34,675 nt of DNA from a virus. A program made the translations under genes and the position numbers. The notes under the pieces were generated by a model. The model made no database searches, was not told the DNA's origin, and saw nothing but the letters and a program-made list of their open reading frames with translations. Every line of letters begins with the position of its first letter. Within the stretch, counting starts at the first letter, position 1. Positions 3,702 through 22,638 of this stretch are shown here, piece after piece. Where the stretch lies: positions 1 through 34,675 of the IMG/VR virus record IMGVR_UViG_3300011116_000664; one strand, written 5' to 3'.

Positions 3702-6377
3702 ATGGCAGACATTAACGTATTCAACCCAAACGGCGAACTTGGGACAATCCCAGAAGAGCAGCTCGTACAGGCGCAACGACTTGGCTATGCCGTCGCTTCG
3801 CCTGCTGACGTGCAGCTTGAAAAGGTTAAAGCTGAATACGGAACCATTCCCAATCAAATTGGCGCAGCTGTAACTGGTGTTGCAAGCGGTCTTACGCTTG
3901 GATTGTCTGATGTAGCGTTAGCTGGCCTTGGCGCTGATGAAGCGCTGAAGGCATACGAAACGCTTTATCCTGAGACTCGAACTGCTGGAACGGTTGTTGG
4001 CGCTGTTTTGCCAGCCCTGCTGTCAGCTGGAGCTACTGTTCCAGAATCTGGACTTGGCCTTGCTGCACGCGTGGCTGCTCGCAGTCCAGCGGCTCTTGCT
4101 CAAGCTGCTGGTGAGGCAACCGTTGCGCGTCTTGGACTTGCTGAAGCCGCTGGCCTGACTCAAGGCATTGGTCGCACGGCTGCTAGGTGGGCAACGCAAG
4201 CAGGCGTTGAGAACGCGCTACAGGGAGTTGGGCAAGAAACTGCACGCCTTGCCATCGACAACGAGTTAAGCGGCGAGAAGATCGGACAAATAGCAACAGC
4301 GGGCCTTACGTCTGGCCTTACAGGCATCGGCATTGGCGCCGGTCTTGGTGTTCTTGGAGGTGCAGCCAACAGGGCATATGCCGCCATTCCAAGAGAGCTT
4401 GAGGGGACGCCAATCGGTCAGCGCATTCAACAGCAGTTGCTAAGAACTAGGGCGCGCATGGCTGGGTTGAGCGCAGCAGATGCGGAGCAAGCCGCGTTGT
4501 TGGCAACTCCAGAATGGCGCAATATTGCGCTTGATGCCGACAATGTAATTGCTGAAGTAATCGCTGGGCCGCAAGCAGGACCACTTGAACGTCGCGTGGC
4601 TCAAGTTGGGTCAATGCAAGATGACCTTGACAGAAAGTTTCTAGGTCAGCAAGTAACAGCTCAAGCGATTCGAGACGGAAACCTTAAGATTGAACTCGTT
4701 CGCGGAAATGTGCTTGACAACGCCGATGCGCTGATTGCACAGCGAGACTTTGCAACAACTGAACTGTTGCAATCTATCGACGAAATTGACCGCGCGCTTG
4801 CTGCTGGTAGATATGAGTTTGCTCCCACCGGATTGGCTCAACTGCGGCATGAGTTAACCAGTGCTGTTGAGGCTGCCGATACTGCCATGGCAAGAGGTGG
4901 AACGGCAGGAGCAGAGGACCTTTACGGTGCGCTTGATGTTATGGCAAAGCGCGCAATTGGTCGAGCCACTTCAAGGTTTGAGCGTATCGGAAACCCAACT
5001 GGTGCCGATATGAACACAATGCGTGACCTGCTTGAGCCGATGTATGAGCGGTTTCGAACGGGCCTTGAAAACAGGTCATTGTGGGGCAGAGCTGCTGAAT
5101 TGCAGAGCGAAATGAATGCGCCAATGACGCGCGCCATAAGCAGCAACGAGGCATTGCTTTCAAACTGGTATGAAAAAACTCCGTTTGGCGCAGACCCTAC
5201 CAACCCATGGAGACGCGCTAGGGTCGCAAGCAATACAAAAATTGCTGAAAATATTCGCAATGCAACGCGACCAGGAACTGATTTTGCTGACCGCGCATTG
5301 AGAGAACAGATTGCCAATGAGATTCAATGGCAAGACGCTGCATTGCGACTTGGTAACTTTGAAAACATGGGCGAACTGAGAGCGGCCTTTGAGGATCAGG
5401 CCGTTCTTAACAATAGAATCCTTCGCCATCAAGATCGAGCAACACAAGCTGCTCTTGCAAAGAACCTTATTGATGAAATTTCTGGAGGTTCGGATTCTTT
5501 TGTTGGTGCCGTTCTTGGCTCTTCCCTTGCGACTGGTAACGTAGCGCTTGGCGCTCTTTTCGCTCCACTAATGAAGCCTCGCATGATGTTGCGTGGGGCG
5601 CAGATGGTCGAGAACATTGCGAACGGCCAGGCTGGTCGCATTGGGGCAGCGGTTAGACGTGCCGCTACCGCAGTTAACGATGGCGCAGTAGCAATTGCGG
5701 AAAGCGCTCCTACAGCTGGAGCAGCTTTAGCGCGGTATGACCAGCGTTCTAAAAGAGTAAAAGAGCTGTCTACACAAGCTCCTATTGTTCGTCAGCGCCT
5801 TGAAGAACAAACGAGTTGGATGGCAGACCAAGCTCCGCGCGCTCGTCAAGCCGCTGTCGCAACCGGATTGCGTCAAATTGACTACTTAAACAAGAATTTG
5901 CCGTCGTCAGTTGCTTCGCCTACGCCGTTTGCTTCCCCGTTGCCTCCGACTCGTCAGCAGGTGCATACATGGCTTAACAGGCTGCGAGCGATTGAAAACC
6001 CATCAAGCATCCTTGATGATTTTTCCAAAGGGAAACTAACGCCTGAGGCAGTTGATGCTGTCCGCGCGGTTTACCCAGAGACGTTTGCTGATATTCAATC
6101 GCAGATGCTGGAGCGCTTGGGCGCCCTCCAAGGCAAAAAAAAGGCGCCTGCTTACGCGCAACGAATCCAGCTTGGGCTGTTGCTGGGCATTCCTTCAGAC
6201 CCAACGATGACGCCAGAAGTCATGCAGGCCGTCCAAGGATCGTATGCTGCTCAGCCCAATGCAACACGAGAAGGCGCAGCGGGCCCAGCTCCGCAGCAAG
6301 GCCAAAAGGCGCCTAATATTGCCGCAGGTTTCAGGAGCGGTTCCGAAGAAACTGAGTTAACATCGGGGGCACAATGA
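3702..6377 (+). CDS. Large putative internal virion / pore-forming ejection protein
   Basis: 891 residues, beginning immediately after the preceding stop codon with no clear Shine-Dalgarno, so it may be translationally coupled. Residues 45-250 are dominated by Gly/Ala/Leu-rich hydrophobic segments (for example ATAGLTSGLTGIGIGAGLGVLGGA), followed by a long Arg/Glu/Gln-rich helical part and more hydrophobic segments around residues 600-650. Large size, alternating membrane-active and coiled segments, and a place after the tail-hub and before the fibre genes fit the class of ejection proteins that build a trans-envelope channel in podoviruses. No lytic transglycosylase or peptidase motif was found. 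The last codons overlap the next start by ATGA. Confidence 0.6.
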   Translation: MADINVFNPNGELGTIPEEQLVQAQRLGYAVASPADVQLEKVKAEYGTIPNQIGAAVTGVASGLTLGLSDVALAGLGADEALKAYETLYPETRTAGTVVGAVLPALLSAGATVPESGLGLAARVAARSPAALAQAAGEATVARLGLAEAAGLTQGIGRTAARWATQAGVENALQGVGQETARLAIDNELSGEKIGQIATAGLTSGLTGIGIGAGLGVLGGAANRAYAAIPRELEGTPIGQRIQQQLLRTRARMAGLSAADAEQAALLATPEWRNIALDADNVIAEVIAGPQAGPLERRVAQVGSMQDDLDRKFLGQQVTAQAIRDGNLKIELVRGNVLDNADALIAQRDFATTELLQSIDEIDRALAAGRYEFAPTGLAQLRHELTSAVEAADTAMARGGTAGAEDLYGALDVMAKRAIGRATSRFERIGNPTGADMNTMRDLLEPMYERFRTGLENRSLWGRAAELQSEMNAPMTRAISSNEALLSNWYEKTPFGADPTNPWRRARVASNTKIAENIRNATRPGTDFADRALREQIANEIQWQDAALRLGNFENMGELRAAFEDQAVLNNRILRHQDRATQAALAKNLIDEISGGSDSFVGAVLGSSLATGNVALGALFAPLMKPRMMLRGAQMVENIANGQAGRIGAAVRRAATAVNDGAVAIAESAPTAGAALARYDQRSKRVKELSTQAPIVRQRLEEQTSWMADQAPRARQAAVATGLRQIDYLNKNLPSSVASPTPFASPLPPTRQQVHTWLNRLRAIENPSSILDDFSKGKLTPEAVDAVRAVYPETFADIQSQMLERLGALQGKKKAPAYAQRIQLGLLLGIPSDPTMTPEVMQAVQGSYAAQPNATREGAAGPAPQQGQKAPNIAAGFRSGSEETELTSGAQ

Positions 6378-12717: not shown

Positions 12718-13113
12718 TTAGAACGGGATGTCGTCGTTGTCAAAGACTGAAAAATCAGGCTCAGCCTTGGTTGTAGGAGCGGCCTGCGCTTGTTCGCGCC
12801 GCTCGCCTTTGACGAGGTGTACGTCGCTTGCAGCGACCTCGGTTTTGTAGCGTTTCTGTCCGTCTTTCTCCCAGCTCGAGGTGCGGAGGGAGCCTTCAAC
12901 GACGAGTTGCGAGCCTTTGGTCAGCAAGCGAGCCATGGCCTCGGCACGTTTGCCGAACAGCACGACCGAATGCCACTCGGTGTGGTCGATCCATTGTTCG
13001 CCTTGCTTTTTCCGCTCCGACGTTGCGAGCGAAAATTTCAGCACTGGCATTGCGCCAGCCTGTTTCAGCTCAGGGTCTTTCCCAAGCCGCCCAAACAAAG
13101 TAACGCGATTCAC
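12718..13113 (-). CDS. ssb: Single-stranded DNA-binding protein
   Basis: 131 residues with the OB-fold start MNRVTLFGRLGKDPELK, the HTEWHSVVLFGKRAEAMARLLTKGSQLVVEGSLRTSSWEKDGQKRYKTEV core and the acidic tip FDNDDIPF that recruits partner proteins in bacterial SSBs. The start is a GTG at 13113 with a strong GGAGG eight bases upstream and a GTGA overlap with the stop of the exonuclease-RecT gene. SSB coats single strands made by the exonuclease, a standard partner of RecT-type annealing proteins, and the coupling implies co-production. Confidence 0.95.
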   Translation of the reverse strand: MNRVTLFGRLGKDPELKQAGAMPVLKFSLATSERKKQGEQWIDHTEWHSVVLFGKRAEAMARLLTKGSQLVVEGSLRTSSWEKDGQKRYKTEVAASDVHLVKGERREQAQAAPTTKAEPDFSVFDNDDIPF

Positions 13114-14528
13114 GATGCACCTCCGAATTCCTCAGGCGAGTAAACTCCCGCCATGACCTCAGGCCAAACAAATCGTGCGGCCTCCGCAATGCACCGATTG
13201 ATCAGCATTTCGCGCGGATACTTGGACCAGTTTGGCCTGGACGCAAGCCCTGCTCGCTTAGCATCTTCGATGCCCCAGGTGTAAACCTCTGGCTCGTTCC
13301 AGCCATGCCGCTGGACCTCGACCGTTGCCAACTCGTTGCTGCATTTGCTGCGGACAACGCGAAACATCTTGCACGACGGGTGCTCAAGGCATCGAGCCAT
13401 CATGGCCTGAGCTGACATGGTGGGTTTGCCTTCCACAATGTGGAACGAACGCAACGCAGCCATGGCTCCGAGTCCGAATTCTCGGCCCGCCATGATTACC
13501 AGCATGGCAGCCTCTGGCGTTCCATAGGCGCTGAACATGCGCGAGCCAACGACAACTTTGGCAAGGCCGTATGCGCTGCGACTGTCGGTCGGCTCGAGCT
13601 GGCGTGCCCAATCCTGCGGCGCCGCTACAAGCGCACGTTGCGGAGCGCTAGCGGGAGCCGGTGGCGCCTGCGGGATAGTGTCTGCTGCCGGTGGCGCAGC
13701 AGGAGCGTCGTCAAATTCTGCTTCAATTGTCATGGTTTCCTTTGCTTTAGTCGTGATTCGAGGCTGCTGAATTGCAGCCAAGAGATCGGAGGTTACGCAC
13801 GCAGAGGCAAGCTCTGGGCGTAGCGTTACCAGTTCGAGTGCGAGGATGATGTTGCATCCAGCGCGTGTAGCGGCCTCGTGTAGCGCTTTTCTAAGCGCGG
13901 GCGTAAATGCGTCCGCATTCTCTCTCAAAGCGTCATAAACGCCGTTTATGCTGCCGTAATCTACCAGCAACGAGGTGGCGCGCTTAGGACCAACACCAGC
14001 TACACCAGGAACGTTATCGGACTTGTCGCCGGTTAGCGCTAACCATTCGGCAACTTTATTGGGCCATACTCCGAGTTCAGCATGTACCATTTCTGAGGTG
14101 ACGACCTCGTTGCGGCCCAGGTGGTACATGGTGACGCCCGCGCGCAGCAATTGTAAAAGGTCTTTGTCTTGGCTCAGGATCGTTTGTTCGCCGTCGATTC
14201 CATGCACAAACGATGCAATTAAATCGTCGGCCTCAAAGCCATCGAGCTCGACCATGGGAAAGCCGTCATCGCGCAGCGCTTCGATGGTGCGGCGCATTTG
14301 CTCAAGGCTTAGCTCGTCCTTTGCGGGCCTGTTTGCCTTGTATTCTGGCCACTTGTCGCGGCGCCAACTGGTGCGCGAATCGAGCGCAATAACGGTAGCG
14401 CCATGCCCGGCTGCATGTTCGCGAATTTGGCCAAGCGTCCGCTGAGCGGCGTAGCTCAGGGCCTCGTCGCCGCTGGCGTGCCACTGTCGCCACCAAACGG
14501 CGGAAAAATCTACGATTAGCGTACTCAT
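13110..14528 (-). CDS. 5'-3' exonuclease fused to RecT-like annealing protein
   Basis: 472 residues from the ATG at 14528 (ATGA overlap with the upstream gene). Residues 1-250 are a FEN/T5-type 5' nuclease: N-terminal VDFSA, RRDKWPEYKANR, DGFEADDLIA (96-105), LSQDKDLLQL (119-128) and TGDKSDNVPGVAGVGPKRA (166-184, H3TH), supplying the metal-binding acidic residues. An Ala/Pro linker spans about 272-305. Residues 315-472 match RecT-type single-strand annealing proteins (FGLGAMAALRSFHIVEGKPTMSA; RPNWSKYPREMLINRCIAEAARF; YSPEEFG). Resection and annealing are normally made by separate proteins (RecE/RecT, Exo/Bet). An internal ATG with its own ribosome-binding site sits at the junction. Domain calls are by motif recognition and are strong. 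Confidence 0.9.
   Translation of the reverse strand: MSTLIVDFSAVWWRQWHASGDEALSYAAQRTLGQIREHAAGHGATVIALDSRTSWRRDKWPEYKANRPAKDELSLEQMRRTIEALRDDGFPMVELDGFEADDLIASFVHGIDGEQTILSQDKDLLQLLRAGVTMYHLGRNEVVTSEMVHAELGVWPNKVAEWLALTGDKSDNVPGVAGVGPKRATSLLVDYGSINGVYDALRENADAFTPALRKALHEAATRAGCNIILALELVTLRPELASACVTSDLLAAIQQPRITTKAKETMTIEAEFDDAPAAPPAADTIPQAPPAPASAPQRALVAAPQDWARQLEPTDSRSAYGLAKVVVGSRMFSAYGTPEAAMLVIMAGREFGLGAMAALRSFHIVEGKPTMSAQAMMARCLEHPSCKMFRVVRSKCSNELATVEVQRHGWNEPEVYTWGIEDAKRAGLASRPNWSKYPREMLINRCIAEAARFVWPEVMAGVYSPEEFGGAS
13731..13744 (-). promoter_or_regulatory. Internal ribosome-binding site and ATG at the RecT boundary
   Basis: Within the fusion gene, AAGGAAA stands five bases or so before an in-frame ATG (13733-13731, residue 266, MTIEAEFDD). 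Starting there would give a 207-residue free RecT-like protein whose N terminus looks natural for that family. This may be the original recT start retained after the upstream exonuclease gene lost its stop codon. Confidence 0.55.
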
Positions 14529-14749
14529 GGGTACGCGTGCCATTCTTGGTTGGCGGCAGGCGTTACGTCCAGGCGCATGATATCGGCCTCGCCCAAGATG
14601 CGCGCAGCCTTGTTCCTGGCATCGTACCAGTGGCGCTCGATGACCTGGGCAACGACAAGGCTTTGGCGAGCCATGCGAACATCCCAGCACACGTCGTTGT
14701 GGTTGGGTTGTCCTGGTGTTTGTTCTGGAGCAAGTTCGTATGTTTTCAT
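14525..14749 (-). CDS. Hypothetical protein preceding the exonuclease-RecT gene
   Basis: 74 residues starting at the ATG at 14749, six bases after the preceding stop, with no Shine-Dalgarno. The central segment (VCWDVRMARQSLVVAQVIERHWYDARNKAARILGEADIMRLDV) is amphipathic helix. The C terminus overlaps the exonuclease-RecT start by ATGA, so translation is probably coupled. No recognised family; a small recombination accessory factor is possible. Confidence 0.65.
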   Translation of the reverse strand: MKTYELAPEQTPGQPNHNDVCWDVRMARQSLVVAQVIERHWYDARNKAARILGEADIMRLDVTPAANQEWHAYP

Positions 14750-14962: not shown

Positions 14963-14998
14963 GACAACGATAGTTAACCAGCGCGAACCATCTGTCAA
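14963..14998 (-). promoter_or_regulatory. Leaderless-type promoter of the recombination operon
   Basis: Minus-strand consensus TTGACA at 14998-14993, 16-bp spacer, TAACTA at 14976-14971, then eight bases to the GTG at 14962. The box pair is nearly identical to that at 18869-18842. It is divergent from the rightward replication unit that begins at 15049. Confidence 0.7.
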
Positions 14999-15020
14999 CC
15001 AAATCGTTCGCAGTGGCGAA

Positions 15021-15048: not shown

Positions 15049-15315
15049 ATGGAAGCACACAAGACGTTTGCAAAATGGCTGAAGAAAAATGGCGTTAACC
15101 AAGCAAAAGTCGCAAAGCTGATGCGAGTTTCTCCGCCATGCGTTCATGACTGGTTGCATCAAAAAAGACAACCGGGGCCTGCGTACCGCGATGCAATCCA
15201 AACTTGGACGGATGGCGCTGTTATGGCTGATGCATGGTTGACAAAAGAGGAGCTTGAAAGCTTGCAGTTCTTGCGTTCAATTCAGCCATTCGAAGACGTT
15301 CACGAGTCAAAGTGA
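15049..15315 (+). CDS. XRE/Cro-like helix-turn-helix regulator
   Basis: 88 residues from the ATG at 15049. This start is preferred over the GTG at 15013 because the -10 box lies between them. Residues 5-40 (FAKWLKKNGVNQAKVAKLMRVSPPCVHDWLHQKRQPGPAYRDAI) form a classic helix-turn-helix of the XRE family, followed by the DGAVMADAWLTKEE segment common to Cro-type proteins. It is the first rightward gene beside a divergent promoter pair, the usual spot for a phage switch repressor or Cro. Its operators may be the GTT(A/G)AC half-sites between 14960 and 15010. Confidence 0.75.
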   Translation: MEAHKTFAKWLKKNGVNQAKVAKLMRVSPPCVHDWLHQKRQPGPAYRDAIQTWTDGAVMADAWLTKEELESLQFLRSIQPFEDVHESK

Positions 15316-15319
15316 AAGC

Positions 15320-15664
15320 ATGTATTTGGTCCTTGTTTCTGATCGTGAAGTTGAACGGTACGATGACCTCCACCGCGCCATGCAACGCAGCCGCGAGCTT
15401 GCTGCGGAGCTTGATGCGTGGGCTGAGGTAGCAACAAGCGCAGGCGTGGTCCTGGCTGTCGCAGGCCCATGCGAGACTGGTGGAGGCTGGCATATGGCCA
15501 AGGCGCGTCGAAAAAACATGGCGATCCAATCTGGTACGTCATTGCCCGATGCGTCGATTGCTACCCTGTGTCGGTCATGCGGCAGACCTGGAATCGTGCG
15601 GCGCCAAACGAGCGCAAAGATCGTCCGTTATTACTGCGAGGTTCATGCCGATGGTGCAACTTGA
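15320..15664 (+). CDS. Hypothetical protein with C-terminal zinc-ribbon-like motif
   Basis: 114 residues starting five bases after the regulator's stop. The N-terminal half is helical and charged (EVERYDDLHRAMQRSRELAAELDAWAEVA). The C-terminal part has CRSCGRPGIVRRQTSAKIVRYYCEVH, two Cys/His pairs that could bind zinc. The end overlaps the start of the resolvase gene by about 20 bases. No family recognised; a nucleic-acid-binding role is plausible. Confidence 0.65.
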   Translation: MYLVLVSDREVERYDDLHRAMQRSRELAAELDAWAEVATSAGVVLAVAGPCETGGGWHMAKARRKNMAIQSGTSLPDASIATLCRSCGRPGIVRRQTSAKIVRYYCEVHADGAT

Positions 15665-16013
15665 CCTGAGTTTGCAAACGAAATCCGAGCTGAACCAGCG
15701 CGAGCATTGGGCGACGAAAGCGAGACGCGTTAAGATGCAACGTGGCGTCGTCACCATGGCGCTGCGGCAATATGGCCATGTGCTTGACGAGCTACGGACA
15801 GCGCCAAGAGTTCGAGTGCTGCTCGTTAGGACGTCGCCCCGCAAGCTCGACGACGACAACCTACGCGGAGCGCTTAAGGCTGTGCGGGACGCGGTTGCGG
15901 CATGGGTCGGCATTGACGATGGGTCAGAGCGCTACGAGTGGTGCTACGACCAGCGCAAGGGCGCCCTTGGCGTTCAGATTTTCATCGGGTTGCCAGAAAA
16001 CGGCGTGACGTAG
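15645..16013 (+). CDS. RusA-like Holliday junction resolvase
   Basis: 122 residues from the ATG at 15645 (a second ATG at 15651 is equally possible). Recognised by PRKLDDDNLRGALKAVRDAVAAWVGIDDGSERYEW: the conserved acidic cluster LDxDN and the following D-A-x...GI-DD are the metal-binding signature of RusA endonucleases. Length agrees with the family (about 120 residues). RusA dimers cut four-way junctions symmetrically, resolving recombination and replication intermediates before packaging. It lies in the replication unit opposite the recombination operon. Confidence 0.85.
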   Translation: MPMVQLDLSLQTKSELNQREHWATKARRVKMQRGVVTMALRQYGHVLDELRTAPRVRVLLVRTSPRKLDDDNLRGALKAVRDAVAAWVGIDDGSERYEWCYDQRKGALGVQIFIGLPENGVT

Positions 16014-16014
16014 G

Positions 16015-16049
16015 TTGACTCGTCTTAAAGCATGTTGTATCAAGACAAC
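16015..16049 (+). promoter_or_regulatory. Leaderless-type promoter of the LacI-type HTH gene
   Basis: TTGACT at 16015-16020, 17-bp spacer, TATCAA at 16038-16043, then six bases to the ATG at 16050. It gives the replication unit a second entry point after the resolvase gene. The -10 and start codon sit inside an inverted repeat. Confidence 0.6.
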
Positions 16050-16054
16050 ATGCT
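16029..16054. promoter_or_regulatory. Perfect inverted repeat over promoter and start codon (candidate operator)
   Basis: AGCATGTTGT at 16029-16038 and ACAACATGCT at 16045-16054 are perfect 10-bp complements around a six-base centre. The second arm contains the ATG of the HTH gene, and the first arm ends on the first base of the -10 box. Binding by a dimeric regulator would block initiation. As RNA, only a transcript from further upstream would carry the full hairpin, hiding the start codon. Confidence 0.75.
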
Positions 16055-16265
16055 AACGATTAAACAGAAACGAATCCTGGCGGCGCAAGCTGACGTTGCA
16101 ACCGCAACGGTTGAGCGCGTGTACGCTGGTTCCACGACGTTTGGATCTTCGTACCGTCGCATTGAGGCCACAGCGTCTGAGCTTGGATTCGAGTTACCTC
16201 CGCCCTTAAACAAAGCGATCACGGGCTGGACTGCTCGAGCCAAGAGGGTAGCAAATGGCTCGTGA
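16050..16265 (+). CDS. Small LacI-type HTH DNA-binding protein, probably autoregulated
   Basis: 71 residues from the ATG at 16050; an ATG at 16032 is less likely as it lies upstream of the -10 box. The stretch IKQKRILAAQADVATATVERVYAGSTTFGSSYRRIEATASELGFELP follows the LacI HTH pattern (xxVAxAAGVSxATVSRVLNG...tRxRIxxAxxELGY). There is no sugar-binding domain, so it is a minimal DNA-binding module. A perfect 10-bp dyad covers its own promoter and start, a natural operator. The stop overlaps the replication initiator start, so repression would also throttle replication genes. Confidence 0.7.
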   Translation: MLTIKQKRILAAQADVATATVERVYAGSTTFGSSYRRIEATASELGFELPPPLNKAITGWTARAKRVANGS

Positions 16266-17088
16266 GTGGTCTGAGGAGCGGTGGATAAAGGTCTTTTTAG
16301 TTGATTCCCCTAGGTGGCTGTCCCTGTCGTGGCAGGCGCGCGGACTGTACGTCCTGCTCCAGCGCCTGTGCGACCGTGACGGCTACATTGACCTAGGACC
16401 AGATTCGACGGCAGCACTGAGCGCGATATTGCGCGCACCTGAAGACGAAATTCGGGAACCGTTGCGCGAGCTGCAACGGTCTGGGCTGGTTGTCGAATGT
16501 GGCCAAACGCTCGAGCTGCCAGAGCACCGCGACCAGCAGGCGTCTAGGGCGAGCGGAGCTGCCAGGCAACGGCAATACCGTCAGCGCGTGACGCGAAGTG
16601 ACGACGCTCGAACGCTAAGTGACGCCGATAAACCATCTGGTGACGCCGCTGTAACGCGAAGTGACGATAAGAATAGAATAGATCAGAACAGAATAGAGAA
16701 GAGAGAGCAGAGCGCGCGCGAAGGGGCTGACCCAAAGGCAGTCAGAATCTCGGAGCTTATAGCTGCGAACAAAAAGTTCGCTTCCATACCGTCACTCGAA
16801 ATTGCTGAGGATTTGCTGGCTCACCTTGGAGTGGCTGGATTCAACGTCAGCGATGAACAGCTTGTTGCTGCTGTTGCTGAAGCTTCTGTCCAGGTTGAAA
16901 CTGGGGCGACAGAAGGACGCATGCGACAAATCCTAGCGTGGAAGTTTTCAAACCTGAAGAAGCCAACGTGGAAGAAAGACGGAGCGCCCAGGGTACAGGG
17001 CGATGGCCAGACTTCCGAGGCGGTAAAGAAGCTCCTTGAGGAACGAGTGAAGCCATCGAAGGCGTCAAAGGCTGACTTCACCTTTTAG
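16255..17088 (+). CDS. Replication initiator, lambda-O-like organisation
   Basis: 277 residues, start overlapping the previous stop. Residues 1-95 resemble the winged-helix N-terminal domain of phage replication organisers (WIKVFLVDSPRWLSLSWQARGLYVLLQRLCDRDGYIDLG...LRELQRSGLVVE). A hydrophilic linker (about residues 100-150) carries four seven-residue repeats (TRSDDAR, TLSDADK, PSGDAAV, TRSDDKN), then a Lys/Glu/Asn-rich patch. The C-terminal domain (about 160-277) likely contacts the helicase loader or DnaB. The repeated linker DNA looks like origin iterons, as in lambda O, where ori lies within the gene. Followed at 17104 by the DnaC-like loader, the usual O-P order. Confidence 0.75.
   Translation: MAREWSEERWIKVFLVDSPRWLSLSWQARGLYVLLQRLCDRDGYIDLGPDSTAALSAILRAPEDEIREPLRELQRSGLVVECGQTLELPEHRDQQASRASGAARQRQYRQRVTRSDDARTLSDADKPSGDAAVTRSDDKNRIDQNRIEKREQSAREGADPKAVRISELIAANKKFASIPSLEIAEDLLAHLGVAGFNVSDEQLVAAVAEASVQVETGATEGRMRQILAWKFSNLKKPTWKKDGAPRVQGDGQTSEAVKKLLEERVKPSKASKADFTF
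16588..16711 (+). other. Candidate replication origin: four 21-bp iterons plus purine-rich tract
   Basis: The core GTGACG occurs at 16598, 16619, 16640 and 16661, exactly 21 bp apart, with flanks ACGC(G/T)AA in copies 1, 2 and 4; copy 3 keeps only the core. An extra core lies one helical turn upstream at 16588. Immediately after, 16668-16711 is almost pure purine (repeated GAATAGA, GAGAG). Iterons next to an easily melted asymmetric tract inside the initiator gene is the lambda ori plan. Confidence 0.65.
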
Positions 17089-17103: not shown

Positions 17104-17805
17104 ATGGATTTGAACGATTATCTGCAAAGAATCTTGTCGAACCTAACGCCAGAGGACCAGGAGAAGGCTAAGCGTCGAGGGTCTGAGTATGTCCAGATGA
17201 ACCTCGACGAGTGGTGGGGTAAATTTGCCCCGGATTTGCCACGTTTTGCTTTTGCAAAATGGGACAATTCTGAATGGGTAAATCGATGCAATCCAAAAGT
17301 CCTCGAGGCTGTCAAAGCTTGGCGCGTGTTTGAGCTGGACGGCGACAGGCTTAGGGCAAAGCATGGCATGCTGCTATGTGCTCCGACTGGCGCAGGTAAA
17401 AGCACGGCAGTGCTCGCACGGATCCATCGGGCTTACGCCTACGCTCGAAAGATGGCGGGTGAAGGCAGGCTGACGGTGGGGCATCCTCCTTCGATTGTAT
17501 GGCTGAACGAGCAACAGCTCGTGGAAGCCAGTTGGGACAACCATGACAGAATGCAGAAGGCTAGGACTGCTGGCCTTTTGGTAATTGATGAGGTTGGGTT
17601 TGCCGGTGGCGACCAGGCCGTAAAGGGAAAGACGCCAGCCATCCTTGACGTCATGTCCGCAAGGTATGACCGTTCGCTTCCAACGGTAATTACCAGTGGG
17701 ATGAGCGTTGACGACCTGGCCAGACGTTACGGCCTGGCAGTTGTTCGAAGGATGCAAAATTGCGCGGACGTTTTGGACCTCGTTTCAAATAAGCCCACAG
17801 CGTAA
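17104..17805 (+). CDS. DnaC-like helicase loader (AAA+ ATPase)
   Basis: 233 residues, preceded by GGAG. Walker A is CAPTGAGKST (92-101), Walker B is GLLVIDEVG (157-165), and a sensor-like TVITSGMS lies near residues 195-202. The N-terminal 80 residues are charged and contain Trp-rich DEWWGKFAPDLPRF, a probable helicase-contact region. Loaders of this type open the host DnaB ring and deliver it to the initiator-bound origin. No phage helicase or primase was found, in line with recruiting host DnaB. A 17-bp segment of its early coding sequence recurs just after its stop codon. Confidence 0.85.
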   Translation: MDLNDYLQRILSNLTPEDQEKAKRRGSEYVQMNLDEWWGKFAPDLPRFAFAKWDNSEWVNRCNPKVLEAVKAWRVFELDGDRLRAKHGMLLCAPTGAGKSTAVLARIHRAYAYARKMAGEGRLTVGHPPSIVWLNEQQLVEASWDNHDRMQKARTAGLLVIDEVGFAGGDQAVKGKTPAILDVMSARYDRSLPTVITSGMSVDDLARRYGLAVVRRMQNCADVLDLVSNKPTA

Positions 17806-17809
17806 AGGC

Positions 17810-17826
17810 AAATTTGCCCCGGATTT
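17810..17826 (+). repeat. 17-bp direct repeat of a segment inside the loader gene
   Basis: AAATTTGCCCCGGATTT at 17221-17237 (inside the helicase loader gene) is repeated exactly at 17810-17826, five bases after its stop codon. In the original frame the second copy would continue as KFAPDFGKFRFEF, resembling KFAPDLPRFAFAK of the loader, so it may be a remnant of a partial duplication. Confidence 0.7.
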
Positions 17827-17874
17827 TGGAAAGTTCAGGTTTGAATTTCCAAACAAAATAAATCGTAAATTTTA

Positions 17875-18012
17875 CCTACATGTGGGCAAATGCTTACATG
17901 TAGGTGGAGTGAAGTGACTACATGTAGGTAGAGTGCAGCACTTACATGTAGGCGAAGATAAGCACTGACATGTAGGTGCAGTGGCGCAACTACACGTAGC
18001 GCAGTGTGCGAC
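17875..18012 (+). repeat. 24-bp iteron array with palindromic ACATGT core
   Basis: The core ACATGT (last copy ACACGT) occurs at 17878, 17896, 17920, 17944, 17968 and 17992. After the first 18-bp step, the spacing is exactly 24 bp four times. Unit consensus is roughly C-T-TACATGTAGGTG-AGTG-AGCA, and CTACATGTAG inside it is a perfect 10-bp palindrome. The array is non-coding and lies between the helicase loader and a terminator. Candidate roles: origin iterons, a partition or incompatibility site, or a multi-site operator. It is not a CRISPR: the repeat core is too short and there is no spacer diversity. Confidence 0.85.
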
Positions 18013-18035
18013 ACTGTGTGTTCGTTAAAACGAGA

Positions 18036-18057
18036 AAAGCCCGCGCAGGCGGGCTTT
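18036..18057. terminator. Terminator between convergent units
   Basis: A nine-base stem, AAAGCCCGC (18036-18044) with GCGGGCTTT (18049-18057), loop GCAG. T-rich sequence follows on the plus strand and AAAAG precedes it, giving T on the minus strand, so it can stop both the rightward replication unit and the leftward 18079-18834 gene. Region 17806-18078 holds only this, the iteron array and a short direct repeat. Confidence 0.85.
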
Positions 18058-18078
18058 CGTTCAACGGCGCGTCATCGC

Positions 18079-18834
18079 TCAGTGAATGGCAATGACGATG
18101 CTCTTAGGCTGTTTGTCGCTAACGTTGCCTCGCCAGCCATCGCACAGGCCGCAGTCAATGCATTGCGCCTCGCTTTCGGTAGTTGCTGGACAAACGATTT
18201 CACCCGAGTAGGCGTCGTCTGTTACCTCCGCACGAAACGAACGCCACCCACTAGCGTGGCACGCGGTGAGCTGTTCCGCCGTCGTGCCAGAGTCAAGCGA
18301 TGCCATGACGTATGGCCTGAGCCATTGGGCGTAGTCGCGCCTCCACTGGTGCGTATAGCCGGTTCGCATGGAAGCTGCAGCCGACAGCGCTTGGATCACC
18401 CCAGACGACTCTGGGATAGCTGCGGGATCCCCGTAGGCCCCGAGTCGCAGCGCTTTGCCTCGAATTGCATCAACGGCAAGGCCAAGGTCCACAGGCATGT
18501 CACGACGTGACGCCCACACTGCGCGCGGGGCCTGGTACGTTGCCACGTAGCACGCTTGGCCCTTTTTCGCCACCGACGGACGCATCGGACAGTCGCCACA
18601 AACCGAGACGTCGCCACCCGTTTTAACCGCGAGGTGTGGCGCTTCGTTGGCCGGGAGAATCCACAGCTGAGCCATCGGGCCCGTTTTGGGATTGCGAGAC
18701 GGCGACGCGAGCCCGGTTAGGATAGCGACGATGGGAGCCCCATTGATTGCAGAACATCCGCGATAAACAACCACGGCCTCGACGGCGCGGAGCATTCGTA
18801 ACGAGCGTTTGGTAGTAGTAGCTGTTGTTGCCAT
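18079..18834 (-). CDS. Conserved phage-type protein with Cys clusters, function unknown
   Basis: 251 residues. The opening after a Thr-rich leader (VEAVVVYRGCSAINGAPIVAILTGLASPSRNPKTGPMAQLWIL) and the CGDCPMR...CYVATYQAPRAVW block match a family of uncharacterised phage proteins that I recall, possibly DUF7227. Further Cys sit near the C terminus (CPATTESEAQCIDCGLCDGW). The CxxC and CxxCxxC groups could bind zinc or iron-sulphur. It has its own leaderless-type promoter and is closed by the terminator at 18036-18057, so it is a single-gene early unit. No enzymatic assignment is justified. Confidence 0.75.
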   Translation of the reverse strand: MATTATTTKRSLRMLRAVEAVVVYRGCSAINGAPIVAILTGLASPSRNPKTGPMAQLWILPANEAPHLAVKTGGDVSVCGDCPMRPSVAKKGQACYVATYQAPRAVWASRRDMPVDLGLAVDAIRGKALRLGAYGDPAAIPESSGVIQALSAAASMRTGYTHQWRRDYAQWLRPYVMASLDSGTTAEQLTACHASGWRSFRAEVTDDAYSGEIVCPATTESEAQCIDCGLCDGWRGNVSDKQPKSIVIAIH

Positions 18835-18870
18835 GCGTTAATAGTTAACACCTGCGAACAGGGTGTCAAC
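18835..18870 (-). promoter_or_regulatory. Leaderless-type promoter with dyad, upstream of 18834
   Basis: Minus-strand TTGACA at 18869-18864, 16-bp spacer, TAACTA at 18847-18842 preceded by TGT, then seven bases to the ATG at 18834. The boxes lie in an imperfect dyad: GTTGACACC and GGTGTTAAC, nine-base arms with one mismatch and a nine-base centre. This dyad is a candidate repressor site. Confidence 0.7.
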
Positions 18871-20085: not shown

Positions 20086-20294
20086 ACAACAACATCAAAA
20101 CCCTCCCTGTTGACCTGCACGACGCTTACGCCTGGACGGAGGCGGCAGGCGAACTCGAAACGCTCGCCACGCTTACGGGAGACGCATTGCACGCCTACGC
20201 ATACGAGAGCGTGCAGAACGCAGGCGAACACGGGATCAGCGGTATCTATATGGGCGACCTGCACGACCTTGCGACCTGGCTCCGCAGTGCCTAA
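20082..20294 (+). CDS. Hypothetical protein, first gene of the rightward small-gene train
   Basis: 70 residues; no Shine-Dalgarno, start six bases from a -10 box. Acidic, His/Ala/Leu-rich helical protein (LHDAYAWTEAAGELETLATLTGDALHAYAYESVQNAGEHGISGIYMGDLHDLATWL). It overlaps the next gene by eight bases. No family recognised. Confidence 0.65.
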   Translation: MNNNIKTLPVDLHDAYAWTEAAGELETLATLTGDALHAYAYESVQNAGEHGISGIYMGDLHDLATWLRSA

Positions 20295-20763
20295 AACCTG
20301 GCCGCGCCAAGCCCGCAGGGGCCACCCTGGCCGGTTCGCTCAGCTACTATCCGCCAGGCTAAGGGACCTCCGATGGTCGCACCTGGACCTTGCGGTGGCG
20401 TCAGGGCTGAGCCGTTGCCGTATAGGGGCCCTACTGGCGCAAGAGTCGATAAGCGAGGAAGTCTTTCTCCGCCTTGCCGACGTCCTAGGGCTGGACCTTG
20501 ATATCCGGCAGATTAGCAGGCCTCTTCCGCCGCTAACGCCGTATGAGAGGCTAATGGCTTGGCGTGCGATTGACGCATGCCGTGCCGCAGGTGGAGCTGA
20601 TGAGGCTTTGCGACTCCAAGAGATAATCAATCGCAAGCCGTCCGATATCGAACGGGACGAGTTCAACGGCGCAATGCGGGCTGTCCAGCGGGTCGTGGTC
20701 CGGGCTAAGGTCACCAGGGCTGGCTACGACCCGGATGAGGTACTAGGCAATGACGATTACTGA
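20287..20763 (+). CDS. XRE-family HTH protein with C-terminal helical domain
   Basis: 158 residues from the GTG at 20287, overlapping the previous stop; the next ATG lies well inside the HTH-containing protein. Residues 17-65 (FAQLLSARLRDLRWSHLDLAVASGLSRCRIGALLAQESISEEVFLRLADVLGLDLD) are an XRE helix-turn-helix. Residues 75-158 are helical and charged, probably for oligomerisation. As the second gene of the rightward early unit it may act as the delayed-early regulator. It overlaps the next gene by 14 bases. Confidence 0.7.
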   Translation: MPKTWPRQARRGHPGRFAQLLSARLRDLRWSHLDLAVASGLSRCRIGALLAQESISEEVFLRLADVLGLDLDIRQISRPLPPLTPYERLMAWRAIDACRAAGGADEALRLQEIINRKPSDIERDEFNGAMRAVQRVVVRAKVTRAGYDPDEVLGNDDY

Positions 20764-22353: not shown

Positions 22354-22638
22354 ATGACCGTTTCGCTTTGGACATGCCAGATGGAGTCTGCGCTTTATGA
22401 GCCGGACACAACCGGCCAACGACTAGTTGAGGCGGAATTGCTTGCGTTGCGTATCGTTGACGCAGCAAAACTGAGTGACCGTGAAGCGCTGGTCATAAAC
22501 GACCGTTTCTGGCTGGAGATGTCCTTGAGTGAAGTGGGCGATGGCTGCGGTCATGTGGGCCGCACTCGTGCAAAGCAGATTGAGATGCGAGCCATTCAAA
22601 AGCTGAGAAAGGCTGCCAGGGCGCTGCAGTGCCACTAA
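22354..22638 (+). CDS. Sigma-region-4-like transcription regulator (probable late activator)
   Basis: 94 residues. The stretch LSDREALVINDRFWLEMSLSEVGDGCGHVGRTRAKQIEMRAIQKLRKAARAL follows the sigma-70 region 4 pattern: L-x-x-REx-VI-x-RF, then SLxEVG, the HTH turn and TRxxxxQIExxAIxKLR. Region 2, which melts DNA, is absent, so it cannot be a full sigma factor. Proteins of this kind (like ArpU/RinA-type late regulators) are often encoded just before the terminase and control late genes. It overlaps the next gene by ten bases. Confidence 0.75.
   Translation: MTVSLWTCQMESALYEPDTTGQRLVEAELLALRIVDAAKLSDREALVINDRFWLEMSLSEVGDGCGHVGRTRAKQIEMRAIQKLRKAARALQCH

Follow-up and report, generated by a model that had tools for sequence, protein, structure and literature searches.

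Beyond the helicase-loader gene of a poorly known phage lies an array of six ACATGT-cored sites which, together with the AT-rich stretch on its left, may form a second, non-coding, origin-type element arranged like oriL and oriR of Bacillus phage SPP1; we favor this reading tentatively, at a little less than an even chance. If the element is a second origin or a fork barrier, the two-site arrangement of SPP1 extends to an uncultured phage family that has almost no relatives among sequenced phage isolates. The array separates two often-merged questions, the place of the main origin and the role of an additional array, and its presence or absence among close relatives amounts to a set of natural deletion mutants.

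The DNA analyzed here (the window) is an entire record from the IMG/VR virus collection, 34,675 bases long. Such records may be fragments. It encodes an endolysin, the large terminase subunit, a major head protein, a single-stranded DNA-binding protein (SSB), a Cro-like regulator, a replication initiator, and a DnaC-like loader. We place the phage in a poorly known group because similarity to the named phages in the collection was limited to distant DnaC matches and a single distant match for the terminase; no relative of it was found in the bacterial genomes searched. Queries with the initiator, terminase, and XRE-like protein sequences retrieved eight related viral records (G001 to G008), and the region after dnaC was readable in seven of them (G005 holds no dnaC). 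The nearest relative is G001, also handled as L004 (DnaC, 76% identity; terminase, 88%).

As the first-pass annotation had it, the array lies in non-coding DNA after the loader gene. The gap that holds it spans 273 bp, from the end of dnaC at 17805 to that of a leftward gene without known function (phrog_2554) at 18079. The genes on either side converge, and no promoter was found near the array. The region reads as follows.

16255 to 17088, plus strand: replication initiator (phrog_1408, E 5e-5; model and weak fold matches)
17104 to 17805, plus strand: dnaC-like helicase loader (phrog_50, E 6e-10)
17807 to 17826, plus strand: 20-bp element GGCAAATTTGCCCCGGATTT, a 12-bp palindrome with a tail, immediately past the dnaC stop
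17825 to 17880, no strand: AT-rich segment, prone to melting, that contains an inverted repeat (TGGAAA..TTTCCA), a candidate unwinding element (from stability and GC content)
17875 to 17883, minus strand: site 1, inverted copy, with ACATGTAGG on the minus strand
17896 to 17904, plus strand: site 2, ACATGTAGG
17920 to 17928, plus strand: site 3, ACATGTAGG
17944 to 17952, plus strand: site 4, ACATGTAGG
17968 to 17976, plus strand: site 5, ACATGTAGG
17992 to 18000, plus strand: site 6, degenerate, ACACGTAGC
18035 to 18058, no strand: terminator-like hairpin GAAAGCCCGC-CTGC-GCGGGCTTTT, closing the intergenic region

The array is a real repeat, beyond chance. Its score of 97 by Tandem Repeats Finder was the highest in the window, and its lag-24 identity reached 0.68 over 120 bp, against a maximum of 0.51 at any place and any lag of 15 to 40 in 100 Markov copies of the window. 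ACATGTAGG with at most one mismatch occurs nine times in the window, always within the array. The six sites fall within 17875 to 18001, with cores starting at 17878, 17896, 17920, 17944, 17968, and 17992 (the last ACACGT); the resulting spacings (18, 24, 24, 24, and 24 bp) confirm the exact 24-bp steps and the additional copy 18 bp upstream that had been annotated. That upstream copy is inverted (CCTACATGT, 17875 to 17883), and the layout is corrected to one inverted site followed by five direct ACATGTAGG-type sites, the last of them degenerate. The ACATGT cores are palindromic, as described; the full units we class as pseudo-palindromes, since only the right half of the conserved word (TGTAGG) is strongly conserved and the left half is weaker. 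With 10.5 bp to a helical turn, each 24-bp step covers 2.29 turns (a rotation of about 103 degrees), and neighboring sites therefore do not share one helix face, contrary to what the annotation had proposed.

On the left of the array, the 70 bp that lead from dnaC to it (17806 to 17875) have a GC content of 33%, versus 56% for the window. Ranked by nearest-neighbor energy, the least stable 40-bp segment in the window begins at 17841, in the array flank, and the next one at 16667, inside the initiator gene; when segments of 70 or 100 bp are compared, the flank comes second, after a coding segment near 3.4 kb. Low stability alone is weak evidence, non-coding DNA often being AT-rich. GC skew, a check that the annotation had recommended, was uninformative, with no switch singling out the array.

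The 20-bp element after dnaC has a near copy inside that gene (17218 to 17237), and its core, TTGCCCCGGATTT, occurs twice in the window, twice in L004, and in none of the other relatives. The GGYAAATTTGCCCCGGATTT form is likewise present inside and directly after dnaC in these two phages only (window, 17218 to 17237 and 17807 to 17826; L004, 3751 and 4327), the copies lying about 580 to 590 bp apart; it is possibly a recombination boundary or a protein site.

As the primary origin the array is disfavored, given the iterons and purine-rich segment found in the initiator gene of all seven genomes read. In the window these are as follows.

16588 to 16666, plus strand: candidate primary origin iterons, six GTRACG copies (from sequence; equivalents in seven of seven genomes read)
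16667 to 16706, plus strand: candidate primary origin, purine-rich unwinding segment (from duplex stability)

The GTRACG copies are spaced at 10, 21, 21, 11, and 10 bp, that is, by whole helical turns. GTNACG-type clusters followed by a purine-rich run stand in the middle of the initiator gene in the window, G001, G002, G003, G006, G007, and G008, with two strict GTNACG copies remaining in G002. In four genomes (G001, G002, G003, and G008) no 40-bp segment is less stable than this run, and in the window just one is; the run ranks seventh in G006 and outside the top eight in G007. At 70 bp, the counterpart of the array flank ranks first in L004 and the internal origin segment second. The main origin of the family probably lies here, within the initiator gene, as GTNACG iterons plus a purine-rich segment.

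An AlphaFold model of the initiator, of modest confidence, has a winged-helix N domain (residues 19 to 87), a disordered stretch (residues 116 to 141), and a helical C domain; the disordered residues are those encoded by the candidate internal-origin DNA. Its weak fold matches include RepA_N plasmid initiators (PDB 4pta, 4pql, and 4pt7), which have a similar winged-helix DNA-binding domain, at E-values of 0.11 to 0.22 and TM-scores of 0.42 to 0.44 over the target only, with no sequence match. In phage lambda, O-binding iterons and an AT-rich segment lie inside gene O (PMC5043065). The 16588 to 16706 element resembles oriλ in its iterons followed by an AT-rich or purine-rich segment in the initiator gene, as does the order cro-initiator-loader (PMC5043065), whereas the array, outside the initiator gene and after the loader gene, has no lambda counterpart.

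A second origin had been among the functions proposed in the first-pass annotation, and the anatomy of the region supports it: a non-coding repeat array adjoins a low-stability, AT-rich segment that holds the least stable DNA of the window, the array stands at the end of the initiator-loader operon and is retained in the nearest relative, and a separate origin candidate lies within the initiator gene. The array travels with the C-terminal half of the initiator (67% identity between the window and L004) and with DnaC (76%). The mechanism would be, by analogy with SPP1 oriR, that pseudo-palindromic protein-binding sites (iterons) stand beside an unwinding segment at the end of this operon, and that a protein bound cooperatively to the array opens the AT-rich DNA so that DnaC can load helicase a second time. 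Alternatively, the array-bound protein could be a fork barrier that aids the switch to concatemer synthesis. What the sequences show is the sites and their retention in the nearest relative, the low duplex stability, and a primary-origin candidate kept throughout the family; protein binding, DNA opening at the array, and the effect on replication are inferred. Against the origin reading, the array motif ACATGTAGG differs from the GTRACG of the internal iterons, so that a motif or initiator common to both elements is not apparent, whereas SPP1 gp38 binds both SPP1 origins; the 2.29-turn spacing is out of helical phase, unlike that of the internal iterons; and six relatives are without the array.

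In SPP1 (gp38 initiator, gp39 loader), oriL lies within the initiator gene, while oriR occupies a long non-coding region alongside moron genes; each consists of direct repeats and an AT-rich unwinding element (PMC6316719). Fork stalling and the start of concatemer synthesis have been proposed as effects of gp38 bound to oriR (PMC6316719, PMC3485210). Common to SPP1 and the window are an origin in the initiator gene (a candidate here), a second array with an AT-rich segment in a long non-coding region near accessory genes, and nearby genes for a loader, an SSB, an annealing protein, and an exonuclease (PMC6316719, PMC3485210). The differences are that the two sites are about 1.2 kb apart here versus about 12 to 13 kb in SPP1, that the two repeat motifs here differ, and that the initiators have no detectable sequence relation. 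We do not file the array in the family of the SPP1 pair, because the sequence gives no sign that one initiator binds both elements; its working may nevertheless be similar. The non-coding origin of Streptococcus thermophilus phage Sfi21 is another short, non-coding, origin-like element in a replication module, and there it is a phage-encoded resistance element whose cloned copies cause interference with the replication of the phage (PMC6356513). The likeness is one of type and place; Sfi21 has another host and other replication genes. A variant to which we give a fairly small probability is that the two origin-type elements carry different motifs to serve different proteins, one the initiator and the other a second DNA-binding protein, around one helicase loader, whereby early and late replication (or replication and arrest) would be addressed separately.

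Of the seven relatives with a readable region after dnaC, only the nearest, L004, carries the array motif. Its first pair is inverted (CCTACATGg plus ACATGTAGG, cores at 4415 and 4433) with the same 18-bp core spacing as in the window, and further copies (ACAATGTAGG and ACATGTAGG) follow at irregular spacing; the 24-bp period is unique to the window. L004 also retains the 20-bp element that follows its dnaC, and with it the AT-rich dyad and the low duplex stability. The elements that survive in its diverged intergenic DNA are thus GGCAAA(A)TTTGCCCCGGATTT, the TGGAA..TTCCA dyad, and the CCTACATG-ACATGTAGG pair, the rest being hard to align with the window. In G002, G003, G004, G006, G007, and G008, dnaC is followed at once by the next gene, with no array between, and a clustered 8-mer scan of the relatives found no equivalent array elsewhere, besides the internal iterons of G006 and repeats in G004 and G007. 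The annotation had named, as part of its refutation, that relatives keep the genes and lose the repeat, and this is partly what was found: six keep the initiator and/or dnaC without it, and the closest keeps the repeat, in motif and not in period. The array is therefore dispensable in the family, and from its absence after dnaC elsewhere we take it to be an accessory of one branch. One relative only carries the array, so all covariation arguments are thin.

That the array is missing from most relatives, and that its 24-bp period is unique to the window, is what a neutral tandem duplication in non-coding DNA, without function, would also produce. We consider this the least probable of the explanations weighed here, as the motif, the inverted pair, and the neighboring elements survive in L004 despite the change in their surroundings and in the period, a pattern suggestive of selection on the sites; non-coding DNA is moreover scarce in this phage (with the gene set used, about 1.6 of 34.7 kb).

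Three proteins of the phage were considered as binders of the array. The Cro-like protein (15049 to 15315) was rejected, since its likely operator, TTCGCnnnnGCGAA, persists in L030, which has a very similar Cro-like recognition helix and no array; an operator role for the array, another of the functions that had been suggested, is correspondingly disfavored for this protein and stays with the XRE-like one. TTCGCnnnnGCGAA stands beside the Cro-like gene in the window, L004, and L030, at early promoters, with related half-sites in TTGAC-containing leftward promoters, and is probably the operator of that protein. In the window it is represented by the following feature.

15007 to 15020, no strand: TTCGCAGTGGCGAA, likely operator of the Cro-like protein (from sequence)

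A promoter-operator family of the form TTGAC-N5-GTTCGC-N4-GTTAAC plus TTCGCnnnnGCGAA recurs in the window (14973 to 15020 and 18844 to 18869), in L004 (1632 to 1680 and 5036 to 5061), and in L030 (about 4005 to 4052), and these sites are probably bound by the Cro-like protein.

Binding by the initiator is doubtful, because its N-terminal half groups with L030 (55% identity, versus 35% to L004) while the array is shared with L004; a small helix-turn-helix (HTH) protein (16032 to 16265) likewise sides with L030 (69% identical along its whole length). Recombination seems to have swapped the DNA-binding half of the initiator, with the array staying with the C-terminal half and DnaC. The differing nearest relatives of the two initiator halves are in themselves a sign of recombination at the internal origin within the gene. 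In favor of the initiator, and of the origin reading, one internal-origin dyad, CGTTACATGTAACG in L006, shares with the array the core TACATGTA, which is the sole TACATGTA in L006 (a post hoc observation in one genome).

The third candidate is central to the main rival explanation, which we regard as unlikely. In it the array serves a dedicated phage regulator, in all likelihood the XRE-like protein, as a multi-site operator or a place of nucleation, and acts on transcription or DNA organization, not on replication starts.

20287 to 20763, plus strand: XRE-like HTH protein (weak Pfam matches), candidate array binder

This protein is common to the window and L004 (65 to 68% identity) with nearly the same recognition helix (SRCRI/SRCRV), and its homologue in G003, which is without the array, has a different one (DRQRI). 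Its AlphaFold model contains an HTH domain resembling those of HipB and 434 Cro, and the array sites are dyads of the operator type. Yet the array lies between convergent genes with no promoter nearby, a weight-matrix scan found no convincing additional array-type site at any promoter of the window or L004, and the covariation is weak, with three XRE homologues only; a search with the XRE-like protein for further pairs of array and regulator returned just the two already known. A partition or incompatibility site, also put forward earlier, was rejected in the form of a parS-like element, as it would have no partner: no ParA- or ParB-like gene was present among the proteins scanned, a set that did not cover every small open reading frame (ORF) and in which many had no assigned family.

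Another candidate function for the array is as RNA, at the 3' untranslated end of the early rightward transcript, where hairpins would serve in protection, processing, or termination of the message. Folding of the plus strand is much stronger than that of shuffled sequences (z -8.0 and -7.0), is stronger also than with the motifs fixed and the spacers shuffled (z -4.4; L004, z -2.9), and exceeds that of the minus strand. Palindromic repeats pair by construction, however, and extended DNA dyads likewise pair their flanks; the predicted folds differ between the window and L004, Rfam gave only sub-threshold matches and no credible family, and a separate terminator is already present at 18035 to 18058. 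Since dyad sites pair automatically and the folds of the two phages differ, we do not prefer this explanation and consider it quite unlikely.

We regard as improbable that the array binds or titrates a host DNA-binding protein common to both hosts, whether as a decoy or for a borrowed replication, segregation, or nucleoid factor. Its motif is confined to two close relatives, and repeats with a ACATGTAGG core in unrelated viral contigs indicate that the word is not family specific; on the other side, no relative of the phage was found in bacterial genomes, sequence-word searches of the literature gave nothing relevant and no known binding site, and the arrays in other contigs differ in spacing and context. 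The exact array pattern was found in no viral contig. A looser pair pattern was found in 19, which carry no replication or packaging genes of the family except one weak SSB match and are therefore treated as unrelated.

Repeats of AACATGTAGGG/AACATGTGGGG occur in the unrelated viral contigs L007, L014, and L020 (array near 700, 2190, and 3911), those of L007 near an ORF that is HNH-like by eye, and these are possibly packaging-related sites.

Elsewhere in the window, one minus-strand frame (13110 to 14690) encodes a 5'-3' exonuclease (PF02739, PF01367) joined to a RecT-like annealing domain (phrog_561); tblastn hits over this frame in L004 (residues 15 to 455), L006, L030, L031, and L032 suggest that the fusion is kept across the phage family. 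A RusA-like assignment of 15651 to 16013 rests on a motif, and Pfam and PDB searches gave no confirmation. Directly upstream of the terminase genes, 22354 to 22638 encode a small sigma-70 region 4 protein, which is retained in L006, L028, L029, L030, and L032.
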